This document shows, piece after piece, positions 42,842 through 47,782 of a stretch of 64,000 bases of DNA. Both the position numbers and the translations under genes were made by a program. Below the pieces are notes generated by a model. That model saw nothing but the letters and a program-made list of their open reading frames with translations. It was not told the DNA's origin and searched no databases. Origin of the DNA: Sphingomonas sp. AX6 (GTDB taxonomy: Bacteria; Pseudomonadota; Alphaproteobacteria; Sphingomonadales; Sphingomonadaceae); the NCBI RefSeq assembly GCF_902506605.1, contig NZ_LR733979.1:62001-126000 (forward strand). The letters run 5' to 3'. The stretch's first letter is position 1. Each line of letters opens with the position of its first letter.

Positions 42842-44674
42842 ATGCAACGCCGCGACTTGATCGGCTCCACCGCTGCACTGGGCGCGCTGTCGTTGTTTCC
42901 GACGCGGGTGTTCGCTCAAGCGGCTGCACCCGCGACCGGAGAGGCGGCGAAGCTCAACGCGCTCCTCGCGCAGGTGTGGGAAACCATGCTGGACATGAGC
43001 CCCGAAGGGCGGACGGCGCTTGGCCTCGACACCGGCGCAAATGCTGCGGCGCGCGCTCGGCTGGACGATCGCTCGCCCACGGGGATCGCGCGCAACCATG
43101 CCCAGTATCGCAAGGCGCTTGCCGATCTGAAGGCGATCGACGCGGGCCAACTTACGGGCATGGACCGGGTCAATTACGATACGTTTCGCGCGCCCTGGCA
43201 GAATCAGATCGATGCGTTCGATCGTTTCAAATATGGCACGCATAGCTGGCCCGAACCCTATACCGTTAGCCAACTTGGCGGATCGTACCGCGCGACGCCC
43301 GATTTCCTGATCAACCAGCATCCGATCAATAACGCCGCCGATGCCGAGGCGTATCTGTCGCGCTGCAACGCCTTTGCCGGTGGCCTCGGCCATGAGACGG
43401 AACGGATGCGCACCGAGCACGCGATGGGCGTGATCCAACCGGACTTCGCGATCGACAAGGCGCTGGTGCAATATGCGGCGATTCTGAAACCCACGCCCGA
43501 AGCCAACGGGCTGACCACCAATCTTGCGACCAAAACCAAAGCCAAGAATATCGCGGGCGACTGGGCCGGGCGCTGTGCGGCGATCGTGCGGGATCGTATC
43601 TATCCGGCGATGCGGCGTCAGGCCGATGTGCTGCGCGCCGTTCGACCCAAGGCGGTGCATGACGCGGGCGTGTGGCGGCTGCCCGATGGCGATGCCTATT
43701 ACGCCTACGGCCTGCGCTATGCCACGACGACCGACATGTCTGCGGACGAGATCCATGAACTCGGCATCGACCAAATGGCCAAGCTGACCGCGCGTGCCGA
43801 TGCGATCTTCAGGAAGCAGGGCATGACCAGCGGCACCGTCGCCGAACGGATGCTCGCGCTCGGCAAGGAGCCGCGCTTCCTCTATCCCAATACCGACGAG
43901 GGCAAGGCGAAGCTGCTCGCCGACCTCAACGCGCAGATGGCGGAAATGAACAAGCGGCTGCCTGCGGTGTTCGGGCGGATGCCAAAGGCGGGCGTCGAAA
44001 TCCGCCGCGTTCCGCCGGAGATCGAGGCAGGTGCCCCGGGCGGCTATTATCAGGTTCCGGCACTCGATGGATCGCGTCCCGGCGCCTATTACATCAACCT
44101 GCGCGATACCGCGGAAAACCCGAGCTGGACGCTGCCGACGCTGACCTATCACGAAGCGACGCCCGGCCATCACCACCAGATCGCGCTGGCGCAGGAAGCG
44201 CAAGGCATCCCCGAAATCCGCAAGCTACCCAATTATTCGGTCTATACCGAGGGGTGGGGGCTTTACGCCGAACAGCTCGCCGACGAACTGGGCGCGTATG
44301 AGAACGACCCCTGGGGGCAACTTGGTTATCTGCAAAGCTATATGTTTCGTGCCGGGCGGCTGGTGGTCGATACCGGCATCCACGCCAAGCGCTGGAGCCG
44401 CGAAAAGGCGATCGACTACATGGTCGCCAATACCGGTCAGCCCGAAGCGTCGATGGCGACCGAGATCGAGCGTTACGCCGTATGGCCGGGCCAGGCGACC
44501 AGCTACATGGTCGGGCAGACCCGCTGGGTCGCGCTGCGCGATCGGTTGAAGGCGGAATTGGGCGACCGGTTCGACTTGCGCGAATTTCACGATACGGCGC
44601 TGGGCGCAGGCGCGATGCCGATTTCGGTGCTGGAGGCGTTGATGGAACGCTGGGCCGCGGGCCGAAAGGCTTAG
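42842..44674 (+). CDS. Tat-exported DUF885 zinc peptidase-like protein
   Basis: A protein of 610 residues. The N-terminus MQRRDLIGSTAALGALSLFP with a twin-arginine motif (RRDLIG) and an AQA cleavage area indicates Tat export to the periplasm. The catalytic-type motif YHEATPGHHHQ (near 437-447) and downstream Glu in YTEGWGLYAEQLADELG are the DUF885 hallmark, a metallopeptidase-like fold. Substrates of this family are mostly unknown; some cleave peptides. It is transcribed alone, and a hairpin follows its stop. Confidence 0.88.
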   Translation: MQRRDLIGSTAALGALSLFPTRVFAQAAAPATGEAAKLNALLAQVWETMLDMSPEGRTALGLDTGANAAARARLDDRSPTGIARNHAQYRKALADLKAIDAGQLTGMDRVNYDTFRAPWQNQIDAFDRFKYGTHSWPEPYTVSQLGGSYRATPDFLINQHPINNAADAEAYLSRCNAFAGGLGHETERMRTEHAMGVIQPDFAIDKALVQYAAILKPTPEANGLTTNLATKTKAKNIAGDWAGRCAAIVRDRIYPAMRRQADVLRAVRPKAVHDAGVWRLPDGDAYYAYGLRYATTTDMSADEIHELGIDQMAKLTARADAIFRKQGMTSGTVAERMLALGKEPRFLYPNTDEGKAKLLADLNAQMAEMNKRLPAVFGRMPKAGVEIRRVPPEIEAGAPGGYYQVPALDGSRPGAYYINLRDTAENPSWTLPTLTYHEATPGHHHQIALAQEAQGIPEIRKLPNYSVYTEGWGLYAEQLADELGAYENDPWGQLGYLQSYMFRAGRLVVDTGIHAKRWSREKAIDYMVANTGQPEASMATEIERYAVWPGQATSYMVGQTRWVALRDRLKAELGDRFDLREFHDTALGAGAMPISVLEALMERWAAGRKA

Positions 44675-44752: not shown

Positions 44753-45157
44753 ATGAGTGCGGAATTTTCGATTCACGTCGATCCCTCCCGCGACTTGGTG
44801 CGGATCGAGATGCGTGGGCTGTTCGAGCCTGAAGACGTCCAGCGTTTCCTGCGTGCACGCACGGTGGCACATCGTGATCTGATGTGCGGGCCGAACCGCC
44901 ACCTGACGCTCAACGACCTGCGCGACATGAAAATCCAGCCGCAGCAAAGCGTAGTCGCGTTTCGCGATATGCTCGCCGATCCGGTCTATCGCTCGCGCAA
45001 ACTGGCCTTCGTTGCCGCGCCGACGCTGGCGCGCAGCCAATTGATGCGCGCGCTGAACGGGCGCGAGGCAAAATGTTTCGAGGATATAGCCTCAGCCGAG
45101 ACCTGGCTGTTCGCCGACGATCTGGACGATGTGGGTCGGCTTCCCCGGACGGCTTGA
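44753..45157 (+). CDS. SpoIIAA/STAS-like small protein, unknown
   Basis: A protein of 134 residues, alpha/beta in character: FSIHVDPSRDLVRIEMRGLF at the N-terminus, an adjoining helix (DVQRFLRARTVAHRDL), and a C-terminal AFVAAPTLARSQLMRALNGR. The layout resembles SpoIIAA-like proteins of the STAS fold, but without a recognised phosphosite. The function is unknown. It is separated from the next gene by a 72-base region containing a BlaI-type dyad. Confidence 0.58.
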   Translation: MSAEFSIHVDPSRDLVRIEMRGLFEPEDVQRFLRARTVAHRDLMCGPNRHLTLNDLRDMKIQPQQSVVAFRDMLADPVYRSRKLAFVAAPTLARSQLMRALNGREAKCFEDIASAETWLFADDLDDVGRLPRTA

Positions 45158-45175
45158 CCATTTTCGAGTGCTATT

Positions 45176-45191
45176 GACTACATATGTAGTC
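45176..45191. promoter_or_regulatory. BlaI/MecI-type operator dyad overlapping a -35 element
   Basis: GACTACATATGTAGTC is a perfect 16-bp palindrome whose core TACATATGTA matches the BlaI/MecI-family operator core (TACA...TGTA dyad). TTGACT (45175-45180), a plausible -35 element, overlaps it. It lies 39 bases upstream of the HELGH-protein start. No BlaI-type regulator or M56 sensor is in this window. Confidence 0.5.
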
Positions 45192-45229
45192 GTTATTAGA
45201 CCATCCCCAATACGACGGGGAGCGGTCAC

Positions 45230-46369
45230 ATGCGCATGGCGCGAGAAAATCTGGTCTACCTAACGAGTTCCGTGATGCTGATGCTGATCGCCGCATCGGC
45301 GACGGCGATGCAGGACGGTGATCGAGGATGTGCCAAAATTGAGCCGATTGCAGCCGAGGTTGGGCAGTGTGCGGACACTCCTTACGGCGTCGTGCTGGCG
45401 GCAACCGCGGATCGCGCCGCCGCACTCGCGGCGATCGCCGCGCAAGGCGAGGTGCGCTTTGCCCGGCATTTCGATCGCACTCCGCCCCTCTATGCGTTGA
45501 TCGAAGGGGATGGCGCATTCGATTCTGCGATCGGCGACGCGCTGGCGGCGGCGGGCTATGTCTGGCGGTTTCCTTGGTTGTCCGCGAAAGCGCAGTCGGA
45601 TGGCATGGCGGCATCGGTCCGAAGGGCGGTCGAAGCGCGGGCAAAGGCCGAGGGTGCGACGACGCAAGCAACCGAAGCGATGGTGACGGCGGCGCTGGCG
45701 CAACAGCAGGCGCGGCAAACGCCGGAAGCGATCGATCGACGCGAGCGCGGGGTGGTGCCGCACGAACTGGGGCATGGCTGGTACATGCGCGGCTGGTGGC
45801 CGGAGCCGCCAAAGGTCGCGGGTGCCACACGTCAATATGGTGGTCCGGGGCCGGACTGGATGGACGAACTCGCCGCCGTGTTGATGGAGGACGACGTCCT
45901 GACCGCCGAACGCCGTAGCGGTTTCGCGTCCCGGCTGGAACAGGGCGGCAGCGAACGCGAGCGATTGCTTGACTTGAAAAAATTTCTGACGACGGATCAT
46001 CCGATGGCGGGGCAGTCCTTCACCATGCCTGCTACCGTGCGATCGCCAAGGGGAACGACGCCGCAGGCGGGCGCACCCGTCAGGATCAGCCGGGTCGGCG
46101 TCGTAAGTGGTGACGAGGCGCGGTCGCTGGCAGCCTCGGGATTGCTCTTCTATCTCCAGTCGCGGCTGTTCGCCGATTATCTCATCGAGCGGGCAGGACC
46201 TTCGCGCGCGTTCGTGACCGCAGCGGAGACGTTTGCGTCTGGAGGCACGACCGCCGACTGGCTGGCGCGCCATGGCGCATCGCTCGGCATCGCGACCGAT
46301 ATCGACACGCTGGATGCTGACTGGCGGGAATGGGTGGCACCGCGCAGTGTCTCGCCAACCGACGGGTGA
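45230..46369 (+). CDS. Secreted HExxH metallopeptidase-like protein
   Basis: A protein of 379 residues with a signal peptide (hydrophobic VYLTSSVMLMLIAASATAM). Zinc-peptidase-type residues are HELGH at 178-182, with WMDEL (Glu213) about 30 residues downstream, the gluzincin arrangement. The rest has no family I know: an N-terminal alpha/beta region with disulfide-capable Cys34 and Cys47, a linker rich in Gln/Ala, and a C-terminal helical part (LLFYLQSRLFADYLIERAG) like peptidase_MA domains. ATG 45230 follows GGGGAG. The upstream BlaI-type dyad predicts regulated expression, perhaps by cell-wall stress (inference). Confidence 0.66.
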   Translation: MRMARENLVYLTSSVMLMLIAASATAMQDGDRGCAKIEPIAAEVGQCADTPYGVVLAATADRAAALAAIAAQGEVRFARHFDRTPPLYALIEGDGAFDSAIGDALAAAGYVWRFPWLSAKAQSDGMAASVRRAVEARAKAEGATTQATEAMVTAALAQQQARQTPEAIDRRERGVVPHELGHGWYMRGWWPEPPKVAGATRQYGGPGPDWMDELAAVLMEDDVLTAERRSGFASRLEQGGSERERLLDLKKFLTTDHPMAGQSFTMPATVRSPRGTTPQAGAPVRISRVGVVSGDEARSLAASGLLFYLQSRLFADYLIERAGPSRAFVTAAETFASGGTTADWLARHGASLGIATDIDTLDADWREWVAPRSVSPTDG

Positions 46370-46401: not shown

Positions 46402-46749
46402 ATGTCGAACCGCATCCCAAGCTATGACGCGTTCTGGCCCTATTATCTGCGCGAACATTCGAAGCCGGAGACTCGCACGCTTCACTACGCCGGAACCGCG
46501 CTGACTTTCGTCTTCCTCGGGATCGCGATCCTGTCTGGCGGCTGGTGGTGGCTGGCGGTGCCGCTTGCCGGATACGGTTTCGCCTGGTTCGCGCATTTCC
46601 GCGTGGAGCGGAACCGCCCGGCGACCTTCACCCATCCATTGTGGTCGCTGGTCAGCGATTACCGCATGTTCTTTCTGTGGCTGACCGGTCGGCTGGATGC
46701 GCATCTGAAGGCGGCTGGGGTGTTCGCTGCTGACAACAAGCGATTGTAA
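46402..46749 (+). CDS. DUF962 (Mpo1-like) membrane protein
   Basis: A protein of 115 residues. [20 protein letters not shown] (a His-containing entry), two membrane helices (about 28-65) and [26 protein letters not shown] are typical of the DUF962 family, to which yeast Mpo1 belongs; Mpo1 is an iron-dependent fatty-acid alpha-dioxygenase. The conserved His residues (HxxxxxxH-like) are present. A similar activity here is only an extrapolation. It is likely co-transcribed with neither neighbour closely. Confidence 0.82.
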
Positions 46750-46804
46750 CGAACGAAACCAACATTGCTTGCCGCGCGTGCGGGGCCGCGCCATTTAGGG
46801 CACC

Positions 46805-47782
46805 ATGACCATTGCGACGACCACGCTCGACCTGATCGGGAACACCCCGCTCGTCCGCCTGAACGGACCGAGCGACGCCACCGGATGCGATATTTTTGGC
46901 AAGTGCGAATATGCCAATCCCGGCGCCAGCGTGAAGGATCGCGCGGCGCTGTTCATCGTTCAGGACGCCGAGGAACGCGGGGCGATCCAGCCCGGCGGGA
47001 CGATCGTCGAGGGAACGGCGGGCAACACCGGCATCGGGCTGGCGCTGGTCGCCAATGCCAAGGGTTACAAGACGATCATCGTCATGCCCGAGACGCAGAG
47101 CCGCGAGAAGATGGATACGTTGCGCGCGCTGGGGGCCGAACTGGTGCTGGTCCCCGCCGCGCCCTATTCCAATCCCGGCCATTTCGTCCACACCTCGCGC
47201 CGGATTGCCGAGGAAACCGAAAATGCGGTCTGGGCCAACCAGTTCGACAATATCGCCAACCGCCGGGCGCACATCGTCGGCACCGCGCGCGAAATCTGGG
47301 AACAGATGGAGGGGCGGGTGGACGGCTTCACTTGCGCGGTCGGGACCGGCGGGACGCTGGCAGGCGTCGGGCTGGGCCTCAAGGAATTTGACGAAGCCGT
47401 TACCATAGCCCTGAGCGATCCGCACGGCGCCGCGCTCTACGAATATTATGCGCATGGCGAGTTAAAGTCCGAAGGCAATTCGGTTGCCGAGGGGATCGGA
47501 CAGGGGCGGATCACCGCCAATCTGGAAGGCGCGCCGATCGACACCCAATACCGGATTTCGGATGAGGAGGGGCTGGAATGGACCCGTCGCCTGCTCGACG
47601 AAGAGGGGCTGTGCCTGGGCCTGTCTTCGGGGATCAACGTCGCGGGCGCGGTGCGGTTGGCGCGCGACCTGGGGCCGGGAAAGCGAGTCGCGACGATCCT
47701 GTGCGATACCGGATTCCGCTATCTTTCAACGCTCTACAACGACGCCTGGCTTGCCGAAAAAGGGCTGCCGACTCGCGGCTGA
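46805..47782 (+). CDS. cysK: Cysteine synthase A-type PLP enzyme
   Basis: A protein of 325 residues of the normal length. It joins sulfide to O-acetyl-L-serine (or related acceptor) to form cysteine. PLP Lys44 is in NPGASVKDRAA; the substrate loop is EGTAGNTGIGLA; the phosphate loop is GTGGTLAGV. Absence of an N-terminal CBS domain excludes cystathionine beta-synthase. The YISDEEG... region and short length favour CysK over CysM. Monocistronic; it lies about 60 bases upstream of an unrelated membrane protein. Confidence 0.93.
   Translation: MTIATTTLDLIGNTPLVRLNGPSDATGCDIFGKCEYANPGASVKDRAALFIVQDAEERGAIQPGGTIVEGTAGNTGIGLALVANAKGYKTIIVMPETQSREKMDTLRALGAELVLVPAAPYSNPGHFVHTSRRIAEETENAVWANQFDNIANRRAHIVGTAREIWEQMEGRVDGFTCAVGTGGTLAGVGLGLKEFDEAVTIALSDPHGAALYEYYAHGELKSEGNSVAEGIGQGRITANLEGAPIDTQYRISDEEGLEWTRRLLDEEGLCLGLSSGINVAGAVRLARDLGPGKRVATILCDTGFRYLSTLYNDAWLAEKGLPTRG

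Follow-up and report, generated by a model that had tools for sequence, protein, structure and literature searches.

Predicted BlaI operator upstream of the HELGH gene

A perfect 16-bp palindrome, GACTACATATGTAGTC (45176–45191, no strand assigned), was identified 38 nt upstream of a gene for a predicted secreted, gluzincin-type metallopeptidase-like protein of an uncatalogued family (45230–46369, plus strand, ATG start, 379 aa), which is named here after its motif HELGH. As judged from the sequence, it is near certain that this dyad is an operator site of the only BlaI repressor of the genome, with a predicted regulatory function. The whole explanation, in which BlaI would act at the dyad, an M56 protease would relieve the repression and the product would be an exported gluzincin-type zinc endopeptidase, is given a probability of roughly three in four. 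The window analyzed is a stretch of 64 kb from a Sphingomonas genome that consists of a single contig of 3,016,405 bases.

The dyad carries the TACAnnTGTA core inside an extended palindrome and fits the 16-base consensus RNYKACANNYGTMRNY, which is proposed for CopR-CopY repressors in PMC7253601, where the authors caution that the 10-base core alone is insufficient. A search with its 14-bp form, ACTACANNTGTAGT, allowing up to two mismatches gave one match in the window, compared to 0.08 expected from shuffled sequences. For a further comparison, a scoring matrix was built on the blaI promoters of 26 other Sphingomonas genomes, which supplied 46 sites; of the 30 source loci, those of the genome itself and of two Kordiimonadales were excluded and one Kordiimonadales locus was unread. 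The window dyad scored 29.5, slightly above the best training site (29.4), whereas the next best 18-mer within the 64 kb reached 6.4.

The preliminary description had placed a perfect dyad with a BlaI core over a likely −35 box upstream of the HELGH gene. The dyad itself was recovered, and the hexamer TTGACT (45174–45179, plus strand), a possible −35 element read in the sequence, indeed overlaps it. The promoter claim is nevertheless tentative, since a consensus scan gave no −35/−10 pair and no clear −10 motif. The likely ribosome binding site GGGGAG (45217–45222, plus strand), also read in the sequence, ends 7 nt before the ATG.

The BlaI repressor and its M56 partner

Pairs of BlaI and M56 proteins are known mainly as penicillin-resistance switches. 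In the genome of the window, one BlaI protein (PF03965) and one M56 protein (BlaR; PF05569) were found by Pfam, encoded by adjacent genes in the order blaI, blaR. The blaI promoter contains two near-identical sites, GACTACAGGCGTAATC and GATTACAGGCGTAGTC, which were found by reading. They differ from the window dyad in the middle, and the exact window dyad has no match near blaI; a first pattern with a 3-base middle had likewise given no matches. The blaI promoters of all 26 other Sphingomonas genomes that were read contain one or two TACN4GTA dyads each, most of them fitting GAYTACRNNYGTARTC.

The M56 protein has a length of 531 aa, of which residues 6–272 match Peptidase_M56, and M48 is matched below threshold. 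No recognisable penicillin-binding sensor domain was detected on it by Pfam. Among the NCBIfam models, the repressor is nearest to CopY and BlaI models, all below cut-off, with 87 bits for CopY_TcrY (cut-off 122). It contains no cysteine and therefore no CopY-type CxC metal motif, and CopY-type copper control was rejected on the basis of the missing cysteine and the CopY_TcrY score.

Conservation of the site upstream of homologous genes

Homologues of the window protein occur sporadically, in 8 of 61 genomes with the single sequence as query and in 12 of 397 family genomes with a profile (own genome included in both counts). For the clade of the window protein, ten other family loci were read (L004/L103, L081 and L083–L090). 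In eight of these, the highest-scoring matrix site of the entire 4–9 kb locus is located directly upstream of the start codon, with scores from 16.2 to 29.8, where the start codons of L084, L085 and L089 were chosen by hand for the site position. Two sites each were found in L004 and L089, and a perfect GACTACATCTGTAGTC in L081. L088 has a degraded site (15.1), which would make nine of ten if counted, and L087 has none (2.8). The proteins are 28–36% identical to the window protein where this was measured. The upstream neighbours vary, with a NusB-like gene end in three loci and a TonB-receptor-like end in five (by eye), and the conserved site in differing neighbourhoods suggests that it travels with the HELGH gene.

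Outside this clade, no site was found near the start by the matrix scan in the short HEIGH clade (0/5), in Kordiimonadales (0/4) or in the other scanned loci (0/9); the best score there was 13.0, for a place in L104 that lies 362 nt upstream. In a maximum-likelihood tree of 30 rows, on which the degraded L108/L088 was scored as having the site, the site is clustered, with 3 label changes vs 8.6 in shuffles. BlaI was detected in each of the 11 other family genomes that have a homologue; two of the 11 carry short-clade homologues. This co-occurrence supports the assignment weakly, since most Sphingomonas genomes encode BlaI anyway (34 of 37 in the sample).

The preliminary description had named two observations that would speak against its BlaI-type operator, a genome lacking any BlaI-family gene and a dyad not conserved upstream of orthologues. 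The opposite was found in both cases: the genome encodes a single BlaI/M56 pair with two near-identical sites in the blaI promoter, and the site is kept before eight of the ten orthologues read in the same clade.

The HELGH protein

The protein carries the HELGH motif (H178–H182; 45761–45775, plus strand) and a downstream glutamate, E213 in the sequence DWMDE (45866–45868, plus strand), which is a candidate third zinc ligand. Across 21 aligned homologues, ranging down to 19% identity, the invariant residues are H178, E179, H182, Y203, G204, D209, W210, D212, E213, E220, R228, H257, P258, W116 and W344. The N-terminus resembles a signal peptide by eye, with a hydrophobic stretch followed by ATA before residue 27. 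In the AlphaFold2 model (mean pLDDT 82.8, pTM 0.82), E213 is positioned on the helix following the HELGH helix.

Foldseek gave no match to this model below E 0.001, and its first three rows were M1 aminopeptidases and LTA4 hydrolase (E 0.27–0.72). In VIA-align, where the rows are re-aligned Foldseek candidates with own E-values above 0.2, the top match was lugdulysin (M30; Z 12.1, 234 residues, rmsd 4.6), followed by collagenase T (Z 10.8) and M1 enzymes (Z 8–10); the listed rows with Z ≥ 8 are M30, M9 and M1-type entries. The HExxH motif, E213 on the following helix and these structural neighbours fit a gluzincin. A relation to M30 would rest on lugdulysin as top structural match; Pfam reported no M30 profile, and a profile search against PDB chains gave nothing at E 1.

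No family was assigned at threshold by Pfam or NCBIfam. The nearest Pfam model, Peptidase_MA_2 (PF13485), gave 14.7 bits for the window protein vs a cut-off of 32.4, and a weak similarity to it was detected in 6 of the 21 family members (best E 1.2e-4). A plasmid location of the gene and a role in a defence system were both rejected, since tblastn gave no match in 72,556 plasmid records and the protein had none among the PADLOC defence systems. Sequence and model thus indicate that the HELGH protein is probably a gluzincin peptidase of an uncatalogued family. The description of a signal-peptide-like protein with HELGH and a downstream Glu, belonging to an undescribed family, agrees with these results (E213 and E220 are both invariant; the signal was judged by eye).

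Upstream on the same strand, the window encodes a DUF885 protein with a signal-peptide-like start (42842–44674; PF05960, E 2e-171), and the HELGH gene is close to a cysteine synthase gene (region 46402–47782). In two other Sphingomonas genomes (L038 and L047), a different small secreted-protein gene behind the motif adjoins cysteine synthase.

Further sites in this genome

The pattern GAYTACANNNGTARTC without mismatch was found at four places in the 3.0-Mb genome: the window dyad, a site upstream of a trypsin-like gene and the two sites in the blaI promoter. The backwards-read control of the slightly tighter GAYTACANNYGTARTC had no match in this genome. At up to two mismatches, the motif was found 20 and 25 times, vs 19 and 22 times for the backwards control, and two-mismatch places were therefore not read as operators. 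None of the four strict sites precedes a beta-lactamase or penicillin-binding protein gene.

The trypsin-like gene is the second peptidase-like target (site L012:1501–1516, gene 1531–2511; C1:971082 in the genome). Its product matches Pfam Trypsin above cut-off, with a catalytic triad that appears intact by eye, and gave only a weak match in PADLOC (E 0.0042). At E 1e-10, none of the 297 other family genomes yielded a homologue, which leaves no orthologous locus with which its site could be compared.

A one-mismatch site at C1:1545239 is located 115 nt before a gene for a small secreted protein with the pattern YC...TGSRI...C...W..GVD (L015:1113–1385, minus strand). Because similar small proteins (likeness by eye) follow sites in L040 and L198, at 105 and 116 nt, this place is counted, from its sequence context, as a probable fifth operator of the genome. 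Another one-mismatch place, at 2500969 (L016), was viewed as an ORF list only.

Sites in the genus Sphingomonas

The perfect dyad GACTACANNTGTAGTC was found in 19 of 151 genomes of the genus, vs none for the control. The pattern GAYTACANNYGTARTC was present in 37 of 41 Sphingomonas genomes, with one match in total for its backwards control. These matches correspond to 75 distinct places, which were sorted by hand: 50 lie in blaI promoters and the other 25 upstream of different genes; gene names at places without a Pfam match were assigned by reading. The three genomes without BlaI in the 37-genome sample all belong to the four genomes in which the 41-genome survey found no site, a coincidence to be expected because most sites are those of blaI itself.

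Among the 25 other places, five precede TonB-receptor-like genes (Plug domain above cut-off in L191, sub-threshold in the other four) and four precede acetamidase/formamidase-like genes with a signal-peptide-like start (PF03069 above cut-off in three; the fourth, in L176, is a 149-aa frame with no match). In four cases the site is followed by a short leader ORF near folA, in two by PF00144 beta-lactamase-family genes (L182 and L197) and in two by HELGH-family genes. The remaining places, one or two per class, belong to a trypsin-like gene, small proteins, a second HExxH protein whose motif is HEETH and which has no match in Pfam, and two cases of unclear kind. Two aspartic-protease genes were added from the perfect-dyad loci of the 151-genome search (L037 and L049), and the gene start in L033, first read as beta-lactamase-like, was dropped from that class as it had no Pfam match.

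The motif stands directly before a short leader ORF in L034, L039, L044, L045, L050, L177, L186, L192 and L196, and by eye a dihydrofolate-reductase-like gene follows the leader ORF in most of these nine loci. A literature search in open-access papers returned none that deals with a Sphingomonas BlaI regulon. In the available part of PMC12915585, an M56 protein appears solely among the annotations of a Legionella-like clone.

The Kordiimonadales lineage

Upstream of the Kordiimonadales homologues, which lack the BlaI site, a different palindrome was found. A perfect TGTCCGGACA precedes the HELGH homologues in L102, L105 and L107, a one-base variant those in L104 and L003, and L106 has partial matches only. 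In four Kordiimonadales genomes, the perfect form occurs at seven places: three upstream of the HELGH gene, three next to paralogous genes of RHH-TM-EF-hand type (L141–L143; EF-hands above the Pfam cut-off) and one in an unrelated coding region. The backwards control of TGTCCGGACA is commoner than the palindrome, so it is the location of the matches that counts and not their number.

A gene for a similar, smaller RHH-TM-EF-hand-like protein follows the peptidase gene tail-to-tail in all five loci read (L102:5050–5676, L104:5035–5622, L105:1421–2122, L106:4935–5714 and L107:5086–5742). Its EF-hands are below the Pfam cut-offs in all five, with conserved DxNxD loops; RHH and TM were assigned by eye. 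The structure model of the RHH-TM-EF-hand protein is poor (pLDDT 48).

In a broader reading, the secreted gluzincin family would be the effector that membrane signalling pathways with a repressor at their end use repeatedly (BlaI/M56 in Sphingomonadaceae, a membrane-tethered RHH-TM-EF-hand protein in Kordiimonadales); the peptidase might then cleave its signalling partner in a feedback loop, as part of an envelope surveillance unrelated to penicillin. This is speculative and considered unlikely. For the uncatalogued gluzincin family itself, the regulation seems to have been rewired between the lineages.

Proposed circuit and alternative explanations

In the resting cell, BlaI would be bound to the dyad over the likely −35 region and would silence the HELGH gene. 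The M56 protease BlaR would sense an envelope signal and inactivate BlaI, a step modelled on S. aureus, in which an M56 protease inactivates BlaI according to PMC7593790. The blaI-blaR pair, the HELGH gene, the trypsin-like gene and probably the small secreted-protein gene would then be switched on together, and the exported HELGH product would act in the periplasm or outside the cell as a gluzincin-type zinc endopeptidase. Sequence comparison gave the identity of the operator and its conservation, the BlaI/M56 pair as the only one of the genome, the invariant residues and the fold; DNA binding, repression, proteolytic derepression, export and peptidase activity are what we infer. The result is a concrete predicted regulon, with a well-defined operator motif, of a Gram-negative circuit that is undescribed so far. 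Predicted operators stand before peptidase-like genes in this genome; in relatives they are also seen before further genes, such as TonB-receptor-like and acetamidase-like ones.

The preliminary description had expected induction by beta-lactams or wall stress. A classical response of this kind, induced by beta-lactams or peptidoglycan damage, with a peptidase acting on wall peptides or penicillin-binding proteins, would agree with the strict sites before PF00144 genes in two of the 41 Sphingomonas genomes (L182 and L197) and with the position of the HELGH gene, about 2 kb before what we take to be an mraZ-rsmH-ftsL-ftsI-like cluster. It is nonetheless rather unlikely: the gluzincin likeness points to protein endopeptidases and aminopeptidases, no strict site of this genome precedes a beta-lactamase gene, and induction by beta-lactams in particular is unsupported because the M56 protein has no recognisable penicillin-binding domain. 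A wall-stress signal is conceivable in view of the two PF00144 loci.

The operator could also be real and the enzyme not, if BlaI controlled a dead or non-peptidase protein of zincin fold, for example an inhibitor or a binding protein. The lack of a Pfam or NCBIfam family at threshold, the poor Foldseek E-values and the missing PDB-chain profile match are in line with this, but H178, E179, H182, E213 and E220 do not vary in 21 sequences with identities as low as 19%, which would be difficult to account for if there were no metal-dependent catalysis and makes a dead protein quite improbable. It is hardly credible that the palindrome arose by chance or has no regulatory role, or that it belongs to a terminator of the gene at 44753–45157. 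The dyad does start 18 nt past the stop codon of that gene, and a palindrome could form a hairpin; this reading was rejected on the single match against 0.08 expected, the matrix score in the top class of blaI operators and the lack of any terminator-like site found, and the site is moreover conserved across genera before orthologues. The BlaI-controlled, exported gluzincin is therefore retained as the preferred explanation.

Comparison with known systems

The proposed circuit resembles the BlaI/MecI–BlaR1/MecR1 systems of staphylococci and Bacillus in the BlaI-family repressor encoded beside an M56 membrane protease and in palindromes with a TACAnnTGTA core; in the classical BlaI/MecI systems, palindromic operators lie over the promoter. 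It differs in the Sphingomonas M56 protein, which has no recognisable penicillin-binding sensor domain, and in its targets, since the genes behind the strict sites here are blaI and two peptidase-like genes, with no beta-lactamase gene among them.

With the cop boxes of the CopR-CopY repressors, the window dyad shares the 16-base consensus given in PMC7253601, whereas the repressor, lacking cysteine and CxC and scoring below the CopY_TcrY cut-off, is unlike CopY.

The HELGH protein is below the cut-off of Peptidase_MA_2, to which weak similarity is limited to 6 of the 21 members, and is too short for the accessory domains of M1 gluzincins. Although its identity to the gluzincins is about 10–13% over the aligned core, with no PDB profile match, the M30 lugdulysin, the M9 collagenases and the M1/LTA4H enzymes are its best structural neighbours, and it has in common with them the HExxH motif and a Glu on the next helix.
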